Assembly: GCF_900182835.1 (NCBI RefSeq)
Contig: NZ_FXUB01000003.1
Coordinates: 1 to 64,000 of the forward strand
Reading direction: 5' to 3'
DNA length: 64,000 nt
Source: Desulfurobacterium pacificum
Lineage (GTDB): Bacteria; Aquificota; Aquificia; Desulfurobacteriales; Desulfurobacteriaceae
Under the pieces are notes generated by a model, which had not been told where the DNA came from, did not search any database, and saw nothing but the letters and a program-made list of their open reading frames with translations. Made by a program: the position numbers and the translations under genes. Positions 26,187 to 54,760 of the stretch are shown piece after piece. How positions within the stretch are numbered: position 1 is the stretch's first letter; each line of letters begins with the position of its first letter.

Positions 26187-27605
26187 TTAAAGTCCATGGT
26201 GGGCAGCGATTGCTGCCGAGATTGCAAGCGCGAGGACTTCTGGGTCTGTTTCTTTGATGAATGTGAAGTCCTTGATTTTTCTATCTATGAATGAAGTGTC
26301 AAATTGTCCTTTGACGAATTCTGGGTCATTGAGAATCTTTTTGAAGAACGGTATTGTTGTTGGAACGCCTCTTATTACGAATTCCCCCAATGCTCTGCGG
26401 GAACGCCTTATGGTTTCGTCCCAGTTTCTTCCCCAGACTATCAGTTTTGCGACCATTGAGTCGTAGTAGGGGGGAATCTTGTAGCCTTTGTAAACGACGC
26501 CGTCTATACGGACGCCGATTCCGCCGGGGGAGTAGTAGGCTGTTATAGTTCCCGGGCATGGGACGAAGTCTCTTGTTGGGTCTTCTGCGTTTATTCTGAA
26601 CTGCATTGCAAAGCCGTATATGTTAACGTTTTTCTGTGAGAAGGATAGTCCCATTCCGGCGGCGATTCTTATCTGTTCCTGGACGATGTCTATACCTGTT
26701 ATTTCTTCTGTTATCGTGTGTTCTACCTGAAGTCTTGGGTTTACTTCCATAAAGTAGAAGTTGCCGTATTTGTCCATCAAGAATTCCCACGTTCCTGCGC
26801 CGTAGTAACCTATGGCTTTTGCCGCTTCTACGCATATTCTTCCGAGCCTTTCCCTCTGCCTTTTGGTTAGCACGGGAGAAGGTGCTATTTCAAGAACTTT
26901 CTGGTGTCTTCTCTGAAGGGAACAATCTCTTTCGCCTAAGTGGACGACGTTTCCGTGCTTGTCGGCTAATATCTGGATTTCGATGTGGCGGGGATTTTCT
27001 ATGTATTTCTCTATAAATACTTCGCCTTTACCGAAAGCTGCTTCTGCTTCTTTTACGGCTATTGTGAACTGGTTTTCCAACTCCTTTTCGTTTCTTGCAA
27101 CTCTCAATCCTCTACCGCCGCCGCCGTGCGCAGCTTTTATCATTACCGGGTAGCCTATCTTTTCGGCTATCTTCTTTGCTTCGCTTAAGTTTTCTATCGG
27201 CTCTTCGCTTCCTTCTGCAACGGGAACGCCTAATTCTTTCATTAGCTTTTTGGCTTCTATTTTTGAACCAAACATTTCAAGGTGTTTTGCGTCTGGTCCT
27301 ATAAATTCAACGCCGTGCTTTCTCGCGTAACGGGCAAAGTCTGCCCTTTCTGATAGAAATCCGTATCCGGGGTGGATTGCATCTGCGCCAGCTCTTTTTG
27401 CGATATCCACTATTCTGTAATAGTTTAGGTAGGCTTTTATTGGGTCACCGTGAATCAGGTAGGATTCGTCTGCTTTTTTAACGTGGAGAGAGTTTACGTC
27501 TGCTTCTGAATAGATTGCTACGGTTTTTATTCCTAATTCCTTGCAGGCTCTTATTATTCTCGTTGCTACTTCGCCTCTGTTGGCTATGAGAACTTTTTTA
27601 AACAT
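26187..27605 (-). CDS. pycA: Biotin carboxylase / pyruvate carboxylase subunit A
   Basis: 472 residues from the ATG giving MFKKVLIANRGEVATRI, with GGAGGG 8 bases upstream; a longer in-frame reading from 27683 would add 26 residues inside pgpA. ATP-grasp features include the glycine loop AAHGGGGRGLRV, GERDCSLQRRHQK and the catalytic MEVNPRLQVEHTITE. It carboxylates biotin with ATP and bicarbonate for PycB. The start overlaps the pgpA stop (TAATG). Confidence 0.93.
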   Translation of the reverse strand: MFKKVLIANRGEVATRIIRACKELGIKTVAIYSEADVNSLHVKKADESYLIHGDPIKAYLNYYRIVDIAKRAGADAIHPGYGFLSERADFARYARKHGVEFIGPDAKHLEMFGSKIEAKKLMKELGVPVAEGSEEPIENLSEAKKIAEKIGYPVMIKAAHGGGGRGLRVARNEKELENQFTIAVKEAEAAFGKGEVFIEKYIENPRHIEIQILADKHGNVVHLGERDCSLQRRHQKVLEIAPSPVLTKRQRERLGRICVEAAKAIGYYGAGTWEFLMDKYGNFYFMEVNPRLQVEHTITEEITGIDIVQEQIRIAAGMGLSFSQKNVNIYGFAMQFRINAEDPTRDFVPCPGTITAYYSPGGIGVRIDGVVYKGYKIPPYYDSMVAKLIVWGRNWDETIRRSRRALGEFVIRGVPTTIPFFKKILNDPEFVKGQFDTSFIDRKIKDFTFIKETDPEVLALAISAAIAAHHGL

Positions 27606-28057
27606 TAAAGTAGCCCTCCGATTGCTCTTAATATTAGTGCGGCAATAATACCGGCTATTGCGTCGTCTATTGTGATTCCCCATCCGCCTGGGAGTTTTTC
27701 AAAGTAGCGGATAGGAGGAGGTTTCATTATATCAATTACTCTGAATAGAATGAGTCCTAAAAAGACGAGTTTAAGGTTGTGGTAGGCGTTAAGCCCTAAA
27801 AAGGTTATTTCCATTCCCAAGACTTCGTCTATTACTACTTCGTCCGGGTCTTTGTTGCCTAACTTTTTTGCTAAATAGTCGGAGGAAATTACGCTGAGGA
27901 TGAACGTTATTGCGATGATTAGAAGTTGTGCTTTCAGGTTTGGAATCCAGAATAAATAAATTAAAATTGCTGCAAATATTGAGCCCCACGTTCCTGGCAT
28001 TTTGGGAAGTTTGCCTGTAAAGCAGGCAGTTGCAATGAATTCCATTAGCCAGTTCAT
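27605..28057 (-). CDS. pgpA: Phosphatidylglycerophosphatase A
   Basis: 150 residues with several membrane segments. Motifs typical of PgpA are GKLPKMPGTWGS near the N-terminus, DEVVIDEVLGM in the middle, and GGWGITIDDAIAG near the C-terminus. It dephosphorylates phosphatidylglycerophosphate to phosphatidylglycerol at the inner membrane. ATG follows AAAGGAG. It is the first gene of the pgpA-pycA-pycB run. Confidence 0.93.
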   Translation of the reverse strand: MNWLMEFIATACFTGKLPKMPGTWGSIFAAILIYLFWIPNLKAQLLIIAITFILSVISSDYLAKKLGNKDPDEVVIDEVLGMEITFLGLNAYHNLKLVFLGLILFRVIDIMKPPPIRYFEKLPGGWGITIDDAIAGIIAALILRAIGGLL

Positions 28058-31202: not shown

Positions 31203-31676
31203 ATGAAATACCTTACAGACTTTGAAGCGTTGAACTATCACGGATACGACTGGCACTCTTTTGCTTTTGAAAAAGAGCGGGAATATCCGCAAGAGGTAAG
31301 AGAGTGGGCAGGAGACTACGGTATAGAAAAGCGGGGGGAAAGGGAAATAGCATCACCTATCAGAGCCTTCCTTGACCACCTTTTCTATACGATACGGTTT
31401 ATGAAGTTAGTTCCTACTTACCGAATAGAAGACCTGCTGTTTAGTGATGAAGAAGAGAAAGAGATACTTCAAAAGGTAGAAGAGCTGCTTGAACCGGTCT
31501 TGAACGACGAAGAAAGGGAACTTTTGCACAGGTGGAAGAGGTTTAACGCAGGGGGAAATTATGAACCTGTCAATAGATTCCTCTCTCAAAGAGAAGCTTG
31601 GAGAAAAAAGTTTAGAAAGAATAGAAGTAATGATGAAGATTTTAGAGAGCGTCTCAGAAAAGCCTTTGGTCTTTAA
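31203..31676 (+). CDS. Unknown protein overlapping an AbiEii-like gene
   Basis: 157 residues, highly charged (Glu, Arg, Lys) and mostly helical by eye, with no signal peptide, membrane segment or cysteine. It starts 3 bases after folC with a modest AGGAA site. Its last 116 bases are also read in another frame as the start of the AbiEii-like gene, so its C-terminal 38 residues are overprinted. I recognise no domain. By position it could be the partner (antitoxin-like) of the nucleotidyltransferase, but it lacks an evident winged helix as in AbiEi. Confidence 0.65.
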   Translation: MKYLTDFEALNYHGYDWHSFAFEKEREYPQEVREWAGDYGIEKRGEREIASPIRAFLDHLFYTIRFMKLVPTYRIEDLLFSDEEEKEILQKVEELLEPVLNDEERELLHRWKRFNAGGNYEPVNRFLSQREAWRKKFRKNRSNDEDFRERLRKAFGL

Positions 31677-47907: not shown

Positions 47908-49253
47908 TGGAGGTCGGAGGATTACTTCACGCGTTTAACGTTCACCTTTCTAAAACGGAATTAGCGGAGCTTTCGGTTCTGCTTTTCGTTGTAACTTACG
48001 CGATGATTCTTCTTGAAAAGTTCTTTCACAGAACGATTGCTGCTCTCGTAGGTGCTTCTCTGGCTTTAGTTATAGGCGTTATTACGCCTGAGAGAGCGTG
48101 GGAAGCGATAGACCAGAATACGATTCTGCTTCTTTTCGGAATGATGAACATCGTGACGGTGATGGGGAAGAGTGGATTTTTCCACATAGTTGCGGCGAAG
48201 GCGGTAAAGCTAACTAAGGGTTCGCCGAGCAGGGTGTTGTGGATTTTCTCCCTTTTAACTGCGTTCTTTTCTGCCTTCCTTGATAACGTTACAACGGTGC
48301 TTTTTATGGCGCCTGTTATGATTAACATAGCTGAAAGGCTAAAGCTTAATCCTATTCCTTATCTGATAGCCATCGTTTTGGCTTCAAACACGGGTGGAAC
48401 GGCTACGCTGATTGGTGACCCGCCGAACATTATCATTGGAAGTATTGCCGGTAAGACGTTTAACGATTTCCTTTATGAAGTTGCGCCTTACGCAATTCTT
48501 GCTTTCATTTTAGGACTTATCGTTATGCATCTAATGATGGCTAAGGGTGGATTTCTTGAGGCTAAAGCTTCTCCTGAAGAGTTGAAAGAGATTCTTTCAG
48601 GTGAGGTGGATGAGTCTTTGTTAGATAGAAGACTGATGAAGAAGTCTGTTGGCGTCTTTTTGGTCACTATAGTTCTCTTTATCGTTGGACACAACATCGG
48701 TCTTGAACCTGGCGTTATTGCTCTAATGATGGCTACAATCTTAGCTTTTATCAGTGGTCTTTCACCTGCGTGGATTTTGGAAAAGGTGGAATGGACAACG
48801 CTCATATTCTTTATGGGACTCTTTATGGTTGTTGGTGCTCTTGAAGTAAACGGCGTTTTTGAAGACGCTGCTCACTGGCTCATAAAAGAAATAGGAGACA
48901 ACATCCATCACGGTATTTTGATTGTAGGTTTCGTTTCCGCCTTGATTTCGGGATTCGTTGACAACATTCCGTTTACCATGTCTATGGCTTACGTATTAAA
49001 GGGTATGGAAGCTCAGATGGGAAGCGTAATGGACCCTCTCTGGTGGGCTCTTTCTTTGGGAGCTTGTTTGGGAGGAAACCTGACCCTTATAGGTGCTTCT
49101 GCCAACATCGTTACTGCTGATATAGCTGAGAGGAACGGCTATAAGATAGATTTCTTCAGATTTATGAAGTACGGAACTCCCGTTGCTGCGGTTACAGTTA
49201 TAGTTGCGATACTGCTCTTCTACGTTGAGCATGCAGTTTTCGGAGGTTTCTAA
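47907..49253 (+). CDS. NhaD/ArsB-type sodium:proton antiporter or anion permease
   Basis: 448 residues from the ATG at 47907 (TGATG overlap with recN, GGGAGGA site); an ATG at 47895 would start inside recN. About 11-12 membrane helices. Conserved half-site motifs are AFFSAFLDNVTTVLFMAP and the later GFVDNIPFTMSM, with SNTGGTATLIGDPPN and NLTLIGASANIV repeats, as in the inverted-repeat ion transporter superfamily. NhaD-type Na+/H+ exchange is most likely; the substrate is not proven. Confidence 0.85.
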   Translation: MEVGGLLHAFNVHLSKTELAELSVLLFVVTYAMILLEKFFHRTIAALVGASLALVIGVITPERAWEAIDQNTILLLFGMMNIVTVMGKSGFFHIVAAKAVKLTKGSPSRVLWIFSLLTAFFSAFLDNVTTVLFMAPVMINIAERLKLNPIPYLIAIVLASNTGGTATLIGDPPNIIIGSIAGKTFNDFLYEVAPYAILAFILGLIVMHLMMAKGGFLEAKASPEELKEILSGEVDESLLDRRLMKKSVGVFLVTIVLFIVGHNIGLEPGVIALMMATILAFISGLSPAWILEKVEWTTLIFFMGLFMVVGALEVNGVFEDAAHWLIKEIGDNIHHGILIVGFVSALISGFVDNIPFTMSMAYVLKGMEAQMGSVMDPLWWALSLGACLGGNLTLIGASANIVTADIAERNGYKIDFFRFMKYGTPVAAVTVIVAILLFYVEHAVFGGF

Positions 49254-50826: not shown

Positions 50827-51882
50827 TTGTCTGAAGAGTTCCTTTCTCAAGAAGAGATAGATGCTCTGTTAGGTGGTGGAGAGTCAAAGGAGGAAGAACC
50901 TAAAGAGGAGATAGCTCCTTTTGACTTTTCGCAGGTTGAGCAGATAAAAAAAGGGGGCGTTCCTGGATTAGAGCTCATTTTTGAAAGGTGGGTAAAAAGC
51001 TTCAGAGACGAAATAAGAAGGCTCGTTCCCCAGGTGGGAATGGTGACGAAAGAATCCGTTTACATAACGCGCTTTAACAATTTTATGATTAAAATTCCAA
51101 TGCCTGCCAGCTACAGTATCGTCGCGATGAGACCTTTTAAAGAAAACTTCCTTTTCATACTTGATTCTCGTCTTGTTTTTGTCGTTATAAGCGTTATGTT
51201 CGGAGGACCTGCTCAGCCCTTCAAGATAGAGGGGAGAGAATTTACCAAACTGGAAACGAGAATAATAGACGACCTTGTAAAAATCTCTTTGAGGACTTTT
51301 GAGAACGTTTGGAAGGACGTTTACCCGGTAGAACTTGAGCTTCGTTCTATAGAGCTTAACCCCTCTCTTGCAAGAATCGTTTCCGGAAATGAGAAGGTAA
51401 TTGTTGTTGAGTGTATGATGGATATTGACGGATATGAAGCGCCTTTCTTTTTCTGCTTCCCGCAGGGCATGTTTATGCCGATAAAAGAGTTAATCTTTTC
51501 CGAATCCCTTTTTGCTGAAAAAGACCCTATCTGGGAGAAGCATTTACACGAAAAGTTACTTAAGACGAATTTAAACGTATCCCTTGAACTTGCGAGGAAG
51601 CACTTTACGGTGAGAGATATCCTTTCCTGGTCTGAAGGTGACCGTTTGCAGCTTAACGTTTCTAAAGATGACATACTTAAACTTTACGTTGAAGGAAGTC
51701 CGAAATTTTATGCTAAACTTGGAAAGGTCAGGGACAGATACGCTGCCATGATAATTGACTACATTAATGGAGAAGAGGATGGCAGAGGAAGAGAAGAATC
51801 AGCAGGAGAATCAGGAAAATCAGGAGAATCAGGAAGAGAAGAGTCAGGAAGAACTGGCGAAGGAGTGGGAGGAAGCGCTTAA
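50827..51882 (+). CDS. fliM: Flagellar motor switch protein FliM
   Basis: 351 residues from a TTG. The N-terminal CheY-binding motif reads FLSQEEIDALLGGG, followed by the CheC-like middle domain and the C-terminal SPOA domain, which ends near residue 316. The last 35 or so residues are a Gly/Ser/Glu/Arg-rich tail that is out-of-frame overlap with the start of fliN. The tail is absent from typical FliM and arises from the overlapping frame. Confidence 0.95.
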   Translation: MSEEFLSQEEIDALLGGGESKEEEPKEEIAPFDFSQVEQIKKGGVPGLELIFERWVKSFRDEIRRLVPQVGMVTKESVYITRFNNFMIKIPMPASYSIVAMRPFKENFLFILDSRLVFVVISVMFGGPAQPFKIEGREFTKLETRIIDDLVKISLRTFENVWKDVYPVELELRSIELNPSLARIVSGNEKVIVVECMMDIDGYEAPFFFCFPQGMFMPIKELIFSESLFAEKDPIWEKHLHEKLLKTNLNVSLELARKHFTVRDILSWSEGDRLQLNVSKDDILKLYVEGSPKFYAKLGKVRDRYAAMIIDYINGEEDGRGREESAGESGKSGESGREESGRTGEGVGGSA

Positions 51883-52303
51883 ACAGCAGCAAGAGTCTTC
51901 TTCCGGTGAGGGAGAGTCGGAAGAAGATATCATGAGCGCTTGGGAAGAAGCGCTTAAACAGCAGCAGGGGGAGTCTTCTTCTGAAGCTGAAAGTGAAGAA
52001 GAGGTTAGTGAGGAGATTCCAGAAGAACTAAAGGAAGAGCAGGAAAGATTTGAACTTTTAAAGGATATACCTTTAGAGATAACGGTTGAGATTGGTAGTG
52101 CGTCTTTGCCTTTAGAAGAGATATTGCGTCTTCATCCTAACAGTATTGTGGAGCTTGATAGGTACGTTAACGAACCTGTTGATATAAAAATCAACGGTAG
52201 GTTAGTTGCCAAAGGTAAACTCTACACAGTAAAGGAAAACTTTGGTATAAAGATTACTCAGATAATTACGCCTGAAGAGAGGCTGAAGCTTTTAGAGGAG
52301 TGA
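51779..52303 (+). CDS. fliN: Flagellar motor switch protein FliN with repeat-rich N-terminus
   Basis: 174 residues from ATG 51779 (GGAG 6 bases upstream). The C-terminal SPOA domain (about 100-174, LKDIPLEITVEIG ... NFGIKITQII) is canonical. The N-terminal 95 residues are low-complexity Gln/Glu/Asn/Ser-rich. They include triplet repeats (QEN) and a 25-residue repeat with the shared core EEALKQQQ. The first 104 bases overlap fliM in another frame. FliN forms the lower C-ring. Confidence 0.93.
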   Translation: MAEEEKNQQENQENQENQEEKSQEELAKEWEEALKQQQESSSGEGESEEDIMSAWEEALKQQQGESSSEAESEEEVSEEIPEELKEEQERFELLKDIPLEITVEIGSASLPLEEILRLHPNSIVELDRYVNEPVDIKINGRLVAKGKLYTVKENFGIKITQIITPEERLKLLEE

Positions 52304-53034: not shown

Positions 53035-53835
53035 ATGCTTAGGGCTTTGTGGACTTCAGCTTCCGGTATGGAAGCTCAGCAAACGAATTTAGATGTTATT
53101 TCTAACAACATAGCTAACGTGAATACTGTTGGTTTCAAGAAATCAAGGGCAAACTTTGAAGATTTGATATATCAGGACATCAGAGACCCGGGCGTTATGA
53201 GTTCAGATGAAAATAGAGTCCCTTCCGGTATTCAGATAGGTCTCGGGGTGAAGGTTTCTGACGTCAGCAAGATATTTACGCAAGGTTCTCTGATGAAAAC
53301 CGATAAGCCTTTAGACGTGGCTATTCAGGGGAAGGGATTCTTCAGGATAGAACTTCCCGGTGGGGGTTACGCTTATACGAGGGCTGGGGATTTCCAGCTT
53401 GACGATGAAGGTTACATCGTTACCCCTGAAGGCTATAGGTTGTCTCCTAACATTCAGATTTCTTCACCGGAAACGGTAGTTAACATTTCTATAAGCCCAA
53501 ACGGTAAAGTTTACGTGGTTAGGAATACAGGGGGGCAGGAGGTTACAGAAGAGGTTGGTAACATAAAACTTTACAGATTTATCAATCCTGCCGGTTTGAA
53601 AGCTATTGGAGGTAATCTGTTAGTTCAAACAGACGCCTCTGGTGAAGCTATAGAAGGTGACCCTAACACTGATGGTTTCGGCAAGTTAGCGCAGGGCTTT
53701 TTAGAAGCTTCAAACGTTAACATAGTAGAAGAGATGGTGAATCTAATTGTTGCGCAGAGAGCCTATGAGATAAATTCTAAGGGAATAATAACCGCTGATG
53801 AAATGCTTAGGACTGTTGCGTCGCTTAAGTCTTAA
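53035..53835 (+). CDS. flgG: Flagellar distal rod protein FlgG
   Basis: 266 residues. MLRALWTSASGMEAQQTNLD and SNNIANVNTVGFKKSRANFE at the N-terminus, and ASNVNIVEEMVNLIVAQRAYE plus MLRTVASLK at the C-terminus are diagnostic. It builds the distal rod through the cell wall. Its 3' end overlaps flgA by 38 bases. Confidence 0.97.
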   Translation: MLRALWTSASGMEAQQTNLDVISNNIANVNTVGFKKSRANFEDLIYQDIRDPGVMSSDENRVPSGIQIGLGVKVSDVSKIFTQGSLMKTDKPLDVAIQGKGFFRIELPGGGYAYTRAGDFQLDDEGYIVTPEGYRLSPNIQISSPETVVNISISPNGKVYVVRNTGGQEVTEEVGNIKLYRFINPAGLKAIGGNLLVQTDASGEAIEGDPNTDGFGKLAQGFLEASNVNIVEEMVNLIVAQRAYEINSKGIITADEMLRTVASLKS

Positions 53836-54760
53836 TTTCCTTTTCCTCTTTGTTTTTTTCTTTGCTGTGTCGGCTTTTGGCGCTGACGTTGTTTTAAAGG
53901 ACAAAGCTAAAGTCAGTTCCGATTTTGTGTACTTGAAGGACATTGCCGTTATCAAAGGTTCACCGGTTGAAAGACAGGTTCTTTCGGGTATTGTTGTTTC
54001 CGATTCTCCCTACCTCTGCCGAACGAAGGTTTTAAACGTTAATGACGTAAAGAACAGAGTTATTGACTTTCTTAAAAAGAACGGAGTTAACGTTAAGGTA
54101 AGTTTTAAAGGGTCTCCTATTGTTGAAGTTAAGCGTTTGTGCGCGGAGTTACCTGCTGATAAAATCTCGCAGCGGTTAAAGAGTTTGATAGAAAAGGAAT
54201 ATCCGGGCTATATCTTTGTTTCTGCTTCTGTGCCTCATATCACGTTGCCCTATTCTAACTTTAAGACGGTTATTTCTATTCAGTCTTTGGGAGATTATTA
54301 CGGGCGTGCCTTATGTCAGGTGGTTGTAAATGGAAGCGTTGTTAAAAGAATCTGGATTCCCTTTAGAGTTGAAAGGAAGGTTAGCGTTGTAGTGGCAAAA
54401 AGAGTGATTCCTAAGGGGAAGGTAATAAGTGGTGCCGATGTCGTGGTTAAAGGTATCCCTCAAAGTAAAGCGAGAGACGGAATCGCTTCTCTTTCTGAGG
54501 TAGTCGGAAAGGTTGCTAAGAGGGATTTTAGGGCAGGGGAAGTTATAAAGAGGAGAGATTTAGTTCCTAACTTTATCGTTTTTAAGGGTAAGCCTGTAAA
54601 AGTTATATACGATAGCGGAGGAATTCATATAGAGCTTTTGGGCGTTCCTATGGAAAATGGGGCTTTAGGGGATATAATAAGAGTTAAAAACATTTCTACT
54701 GGAAAACAGCTGATATGCAAGGTTATTGGAAAAAATACCGTTACCTTTGTATCTCACTAA
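53798..54760 (+). CDS. flgA: Flagellar P-ring formation chaperone FlgA
   Basis: 320 residues from ATG 53798; a TTG at 53816 is an alternative. A signal peptide (LFLFVFFFAVSAFG) precedes the mature part. The C-terminal SAF domain has VVAKRVIPKGKVISGADV, RDFRAGEVIKRRDL and the typical terminus region. It assists P-ring assembly in the periplasm. It overlaps flgG (38 bases) and flgH (46 bases) in different frames. Confidence 0.92.
   Translation: MKCLGLLRRLSLNFLFLFVFFFAVSAFGADVVLKDKAKVSSDFVYLKDIAVIKGSPVERQVLSGIVVSDSPYLCRTKVLNVNDVKNRVIDFLKKNGVNVKVSFKGSPIVEVKRLCAELPADKISQRLKSLIEKEYPGYIFVSASVPHITLPYSNFKTVISIQSLGDYYGRALCQVVVNGSVVKRIWIPFRVERKVSVVVAKRVIPKGKVISGADVVVKGIPQSKARDGIASLSEVVGKVAKRDFRAGEVIKRRDLVPNFIVFKGKPVKVIYDSGGIHIELLGVPMENGALGDIIRVKNISTGKQLICKVIGKNTVTFVSH

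Follow-up and report, generated by a model that had tools for sequence, protein, structure and literature searches.

A long out-of-frame fliM–fliN overlap common to the Desulfurobacteriaceae, probably a product of stop-codon loss

Long overlaps between neighbouring genes on the same strand, in phase 1, have been attributed to 3′ elongation of the upstream gene and explained without selection (Fonseca 2013, PMC3887535; likewise Sabath 2008, PMC2542354; both according to the portions of the papers available). In a 2008 survey covering 338 genomes, no co-directional overlap longer than 60 bp proved real, and 56 bp was taken as the longest (PMC2478687, from the accessible part of the text). The overlap of the flagellar switch genes fliM and fliN described here resembles those of the first two papers, as far as their available portions go, in strand, in phase and in the apparent extension of the upstream gene, presumably after stop loss, to the next stop inside the downstream gene. 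It differs from them in being common to a whole family and in running through a stretch that is stop-poor because it encodes the Glu/Gln/Lys tail of FliN. Like the overlaps in the accessible part of the survey, it is co-directional and conserved among related genera; unlike them, it measures 104 nt here and up to 137 nt in relatives, and the sequence of its upstream tail is unconserved.

The orthologous junction is found, in the same phase, in the 8-nt fliM–fliN overlap of Hydrogenothermaceae and of vent metagenome-assembled genomes (MAGs) labelled Campylobacterota. At those loci, unlike in the family studied here, the fliM stop lies at fliN codons 2–3 and the FliM tail is absent. Kihara reportedly described, in 1996, a FliM–FliN fusion mutant of Salmonella. 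There, as here, the C-terminus of FliM is altered at the fliN junction, but the mutant is a fusion of both proteins, whereas the present genes differ in frame and are expected to give two proteins. Among the titles and abstract openings listed from the literature on long overlaps and on FliM and FliN of the family, none names a fliM–fliN overlap for Desulfurobacteriaceae. The overlap is ordinary in kind and unusual in length and conservation.

The locus lies in a 64,000-nt stretch of the Desulfurobacterium pacificum genome (the window); the genome (Aquificota, Desulfurobacteriaceae) is assembled in 11 contigs totalling 1.59 Mb and is 99.9% complete. The window FliM exceeds the curated cut-off of TIGR01397 (226.9 bits against 219.6) and carries domains PF02154 and PF01052, the latter at residues 243–313. 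FliN matches PF01052 (83.4 bits, cut-off 23.8) and TIGR02480 (86.8 bits, cut-off 84.05, scored on the frame from 51755). The original prediction, made from the letters of the window, that the two genes are coding in two frames was borne out, as was its figure of 104 shared bases (Table 1). Its span began at 51755, which is a mechanical TTG start; the ATG at 51779 is preferred. Across the junction region FliN reads NQQENQENQENQEE and FliM reads ESAGESGKSGESGREESGR.

Table 1. Features at the fliM–fliN junction (window coordinates)
Feature	Position	Strand	Remarks
fliM	50827..51882	+	starts at TTG; core conserved as far as about aa 313 (51765), followed by 38 additional aa
FliM C-terminal tail past core	51766..51879	+	38 aa; residues 316–351 with pLDDT <50
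Shine–Dalgarno-like stretch of fliN, within fliM	51769..51778	+	GGAGAAGAGG before ATG 51779
fliN	51779..52303	+	ATG start, 174 aa; start common to relatives
fliM–fliN overlap	51779..51882	+	104 nt, phase 1
fliN codon 2 (GCA)	51782..51784	+	in 8-nt-overlap loci this codon ends in T, and T plus the next GA forms the fliM stop
AATCAGGAR-type tract (NQQENQENQENQE in FliN)	51797..51835	+	inside the overlap
First W motif of FliN (SQEELAKEWEEALKQQQ)	51842..51892	+	contains the FliM stop TAA (51880–51882)
Second W motif of FliN (SEEDIMSAWEEALKQQQ)	51917..51967	+	beyond the overlap; direct repeat of the first, 75-nt spacing
Internal in-frame ATG of fliN	51932..51934	+	possible alternative start

The extent of the overlap depends on where fliN begins. 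Its frame is open from TTG 51755 to 52303, with ATGs at 51767 and 51779. Judged from the sequence, the start appears better placed at ATG 51779 than at TTG 51755, because a GGAG stretch precedes it (scored with a 6-nt spacer) and because the family alignment begins there, at MAEEEK. Were the true start instead ATG 51932, past the fliM stop, there would be no coding overlap at all. 5′ extension of the downstream gene, through a frameshift or a mis-called start, was the commonest class of long co-directional overlaps (409 of 715 in the accessible part of PMC2478687), Thermotoga is reported to make a shorter FliN from an internal start (PMC4832279, available in part), and 12 of 19 family loci have an in-frame ATG before the last copy of the tryptophan (W) motif of the FliN tail. 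Such a mis-start is nevertheless very improbable: FliN codon positions 1 and 2 are strongly conserved within the overlap, in loci L005, L008 and L009 no further in-frame start occurs upstream of the last 70 codons, and 51932 has no good Shine–Dalgarno sequence (score 3). A minor second start may exist besides that at 51779.

By family we mean a kinship group of genomes bearing the names Desulfurobacteriaceae, Thermovibrio and Desulfurobacterium, with one genome per species. FliM was matched in 19 of its 22 genomes; the search gave no match in G010, G013 or G001, the last being the sole genome of the same genus, in which the search for FliN gave only a 17%-identity match containing a stop. Every one of the 19 family loci has a long overlap in phase 1, of 35 nt in G017 and 53–137 nt in the other 18, exceeding 56 nt in 17 and 60 nt in 16. 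As to presence, 19 of 19 family genomes with a FliM match is beyond chance.

The original prediction proposed looking for separated genes in relatives, and separate or near-separate fliM and fliN do occur there. At the 46 other readable loci the overlap ranges from −55 nt (L060, which would have 8 nt with a GTG start, fliN starts having been picked by an automatic rule) to 26 nt. None of the 46, which include near-copies such as L021 and L074 with identical FliM cores, reaches 30 nt, and 20 have exactly 8 nt. The same rule shifted the fliN start of L007 by one codon, giving 137 nt and not 140 nt. The nearest relatives, a sister family, have fliM–fliN gaps of 2 and 4 nt, and L072, recorded as Desulfurobacteriaceae yet placed in the sister family, is without the long overlap. 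These comparisons draw on 75 loci, at 10 of which (seven of them Aquificaceae or labelled Aquificota) no fliN was found downstream of fliM, leaving 65 (19 family, 46 others). We used 45 of 80 named loci, the remaining 35 being duplicates of genome loci or distant relatives.

On a FliM tree of 59 rows, rooted at the midpoint and omitting six proteobacterial rows, the 19 long-overlap rows fall on one side of a single branch (support 98/97). A single change to the long state is recovered in 97% of 200 bootstrap trees. On this tree the long overlap arose once. All 19 family loci have the features of 3′ elongation: the genes lie on the same strand in phase 1, and FliM is longer than its outgroup orthologs, with a tail that is without counterpart in the aligned outgroup rows. 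The FliM stop falls within fliN at all 19, and a probable loss of the original stop is read from the sister groups. By the ortholog-length test of PMC2478687, as given in the accessible part of that paper, the tail would count as a 3′ extension and as unlikely to be functional, a reading that we share.

A separate observation on the same tree concerns MAGs labelled Campylobacterota, several of them Nitratiruptor (L046, L050–L052, L057–L060, L062–L065). Their FliM proteins are 57–61% identical to that of the window and group among Aquificota rows, which points either to gene transfer or to mislabelled bins.

We propose, with a probability of roughly 80%, that the family inherited a long same-strand overlap made by loss of a stop codon, and that the FliM tail is a tolerated passenger, not a new functional part. 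In the ancestor of the family, fliM would have ended near the fliN start, as it does in sister groups, with its stop either 8 nt into fliN or immediately ahead of the fliN ATG. This ancestral stop would then have been lost, its identity and the time of its loss being presumptive. With fliN codon 2 no longer ending in T, the next possible stop (NNT-GA, at codons 2–3) would be missing too. Ribosomes finishing fliM would thus read on out of frame through fliN to the next chance stop, for 35–137 nt, across the stop-poor, Glu/Gln/Lys-rich start of FliN. Constraint would stay on the FliN frame, with its W motif, and the FliM tail would drift in sequence and length with the FliN codons and their indels, the local NQE tract included. 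The tail would presumably be made and tolerated without having a function.

The codons at the junction are consistent with this course of events. All 20 loci with an 8-nt overlap have the junction ATG-NNT-GA, where the last base of fliN codon 2 and the first two of codon 3 form the fliM stop, and codon 2 is AGT in 18 and GCT in two. In the family, codon 2 is GCA (12 loci), GCG (4), GAG (2) or ACA (1); because it never ends in T, the NNT-GA stop cannot form. A change from GCT to GCA is silent in FliN, whereas one from AGT is not, and the silent step is only one possible route to stop loss. At four outgroup loci (L017, L038, L040 and L077) codon 2 is already GCA and the fliM stop lies just before the ATG. 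Either ancestral state, the 8-nt overlap or the stop before the ATG, gives a long overlap once the stop is lost.

How far such an overlap runs depends on FliN. A stop in the FliM frame inside fliN requires a FliN codon ending in T before a codon beginning AA, AG or GA, and these are rare because the FliN tail consists mostly of codons for Glu, Gln and Lys, none of which has T as its last base. When codons were redrawn synonymously so as to keep the FliN protein of this genome, 34% of draws gave an overlap of at least 104 nt (P 0.34). When codon 2 was kept as well, 72% did, and the median draw was 104 nt, as observed. For this genome the length of the overlap is not beyond chance expectation. 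Across the 19 family genomes, the probability of a draw at least as long, with the protein kept, runs from 0.048 (L010) to 0.57. With codon 2 also kept, the mean mid-P is 0.33 and 15 of 19 values fall below 0.5. Potential stop positions in the FliM frame are realised at 19 of 85 sites within the overlaps and at 288 of 693 after them. Overall, FliM tails match or somewhat exceed the expected length, and the excess arises in part because the first stop was lost and because the rows are related.

Codon-position differences between genome pairs, a different set of pairs for each block, reveal which frame is held. Differences at FliN positions 1, 2 and 3 are 0.05, 0.06 and 0.41 in the first W block where it lies in the overlap (1,116 comparisons). 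They are 0.38, 0.11 and 0.59 for codons of the same motif outside the overlap (300 comparisons), 0.41, 0.26 and 0.58 for the last W block, also outside it (2,601), and 0.21, 0.08 and 0.56 for the SpoA block (12,654). Within the overlap the FliN frame is conserved. Position 3 of FliN is position 1 of FliM, so FliM changes amino acid where FliN changes silently, and among FliM codon positions the first varies most.

Counter to a purely passive tail, the W block shows fewer third-position differences inside the overlap (0.41) than do SpoA (0.56) or W blocks outside it (0.58–0.59), silent change lies slightly below control, FliM-frame stops are fewer in the overlap than after it, and 15 of the 19 tails are longer than their mid-expectation. 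When codons are compared within amino-acid strata, the overlap shows 0.86 times the silent change of the remainder of fliN (0.76–0.97 by a column bootstrap that takes columns as independent and ignores shared ancestry). The ratio is 0.88 (0.75–1.01) without the first six codons and 0.84 (0.71–0.98) in a subset of 13 genomes whose controls come from the same 78 pairs. In the other deep branch, represented by four genomes, it is 1.17 (0.75–1.88); L012 and L015 belong to neither subset. In the alignment behind these ratios, the first W copy of genomes that have three is paired with linker, and the effective sample is small because the rows are related. We read these values as at most weak constraint on the FliM frame in the overlap, and weak selection on the tail may be acting.

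It is conceivable that the tail is functional. The slight deficit of silent change, the shortage of FliM-frame stops relative to the region downstream and the occurrence of the overlap wherever in the family FliM was matched (19 of 19 genomes) would agree with this. Yet the composition of the tail differs by branch, being Gly/Glu-rich in some and Ser/Thr/Asn-rich in others (by eye), its length past the matched core varies from 16 to 49 aa across family loci, and FliM first positions vary most. In the structural model of FliM its confidence is also low (pLDDT mostly near 30–40 within the span in Table 1), and the tail is predicted to be disordered. From these sequence patterns, a functional tail seems unlikely.

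Alternatively, the overlap may be kept for expression, replacing coupling of termination and reinitiation by independent initiation and thereby changing the FliM:FliN ratio. Distances of −8 to +10 nt are treated as putatively coupled, and a spacing of 20 nt is reported nearly to abolish reinitiation (PMC10666635, available in part). The family fliM stops lie 35–137 nt past the fliN start, against that putative range, and the C-ring holds more FliN than FliM, given as 3:1 (PMC11087270) or 4:1 (PMC4161238) in the accessible parts of these papers. As coupling of this kind reportedly requires stop and start to be nearly in contact, it may have been lost when the overlap became long. Counter to selection for such an effect, the Shine–Dalgarno sequence is no stronger in the family (by eye), and accessibility of the start region is, if anything, lower (mean 0.55 in the 19 family loci against 0.66 in the 46 others, uncorrected for relatedness). 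A hairpin over the fliN start of this genome, pairing CUGCCAU with AUGGCAG, was considered as a coupling device and rejected, being not significant (z −1.22) and not shared by relatives. We regard maintenance for expression as quite unlikely, and we retain stop-codon loss with a passenger tail as the preferred account.

The original prediction had centred on a 9-base repeat tract. An AATCAGGAR-type tract is present, at 51797–51835 in place of the proposed 51801–51840, and reads AAT CAG CAG GAG / AAT CAG GAA / AAT CAG GAG / AAT CAG GAA, that is, three AATCAGGAR units and one interrupted unit. Tandem Repeats Finder reports it at 51803–51835 with period 9 and 3.7 copies at 87%, which falls short of a long, near-perfect array. 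Three measures of slippage at the DNA level disagree. Identity at lag 9 is 0.857, where synonymous redraws give 0.85 (P 0.60), lag 18 gives five identical codons (P 0.05), and the use of CAG for every Q and AAT for every N among the overlap codons gives P 0.0016, the most favourable of three measures picked post hoc. By lag-9 identity the tract is no more repetitive than its protein demands, and it is a local detail.

Relatives separate the tract from the overlap. An N/Q-rich stretch of varied length precedes the first W motif in L001, L002, L010, L013, L018, L022, L023 and L025, and L015 has a different long linker there. Nine family loci (L003–L009, L011 and L014) have little or nothing before the motif and no N/Q tract, and their overlaps are 80–137 nt long, so the tract is rejected as the origin of the overlap and is not supported as its core. 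The claim that changes in length alter both proteins together holds between species: the FliN stretch before the first W motif spans 4 to 30 codons in the 18 family loci keeping that motif, and all 19 family overlap lengths equal 2 modulo 3. A more ambitious version would make the tract a contingency locus, in which slippage tunes both switch proteins within populations. In its favour, nine-base units preserve both frames and the stretch varies in length among species. With only 3.7 imperfect units, lag-9 identity no higher than the protein requires and the tract missing from nine family loci, we consider it extremely improbable.

Both proteins do have low-complexity ends, as proposed. That these ends are new fits FliM alone, because the FliN tail with its W motif occurs in sister families without the long overlap. 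The motif, approximately [SDN]QE[ED]LAx[EQ]WEx[AM][LA]xxQ, recurs in several copies in the N-terminal tail of FliN. Counted over 65 loci with our own loose pattern, which accepts F for W, there are two copies in 12 family loci, three in six and none in one. Counts are two in both sister-family loci, two to five in 25 Hydrogenothermaceae and unplaced Aquificota loci, zero to three in 13 loci labelled Campylobacterota and zero to two in six proteobacteria; a stricter pattern counts fewer, for example none in most Campylobacterota-labelled loci. Of the 18 family loci with a first copy, 13 have it wholly or partly within the overlap. At L012 (G017), the locus with the 35-nt overlap, the shortest, FliN lacks the first W motif and in the second carries R in place of W.

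The last copy is the widely conserved one, its W (residue 55) being shared by 90% or more of the 47 FliN proteins aligned, and phmmer aligns the second copy of the window FliN with LDDLWADALNEQ of Salmonella FliN. In Salmonella C-ring models FliN residues begin at 45, 59 or 63 (PMC11087270, available in part), so the modelled residues start after the motif. The model of the window FliN has long helices across the W motifs, predicted with modest confidence. At E up to 0.001 it gave 19 PDB matches, all to FliN, FliY or FliM–FliN chains, and these provide no site for the motif. For FliN_N (PF16973), no match to the window FliN was listed at E up to 10, a search whose filters drop most matches above 0.1; among five FliN proteins scanned there were only sub-threshold matches, in Nitrosomonas (E 0.54) and Thiomicrorhabdus (E 4.6). 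The titles and abstract openings listed from the literature on the FliN N-terminus or a repeated motif name no repeated FliN motif. The motif is a lead, not a finding; in a reading that we think improbable, the array would be a multivalent binding tail for a putative C-ring partner.

The junction offers a clean natural experiment on the need for selection behind long overlaps, because the long state has a single origin, sister groups are in the short state and most family overlaps exceed the surveyed limits of 56 and 60 bp. It also suggests that both core switch proteins tolerate variable, disordered ends, and it draws attention to a W motif of variable copy number in the FliN tail.

Two further observations concern this genome. 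FliH (PF02108) was searched for in the genome, which is 99.9% complete and has flagellar genes, and nothing was found; the profile matched three of 14 control genomes (E. coli, B. subtilis and T. maritima). The genome may lack FliH or have a highly divergent form of it. Near the flagellar genes of the window, open reading frames taken from their furthest starts give same-strand overlaps at 53798–53835 (38 nt), 54715–54760 (46 nt) and 49204–49253 (50 nt), and two more, by the same convention, lie at 31561–31676 (116 nt) and 27605–27683 (79 nt). The pair at 54715–54760, putatively flgA and flgH (by eye), is plausible as a true overlap.
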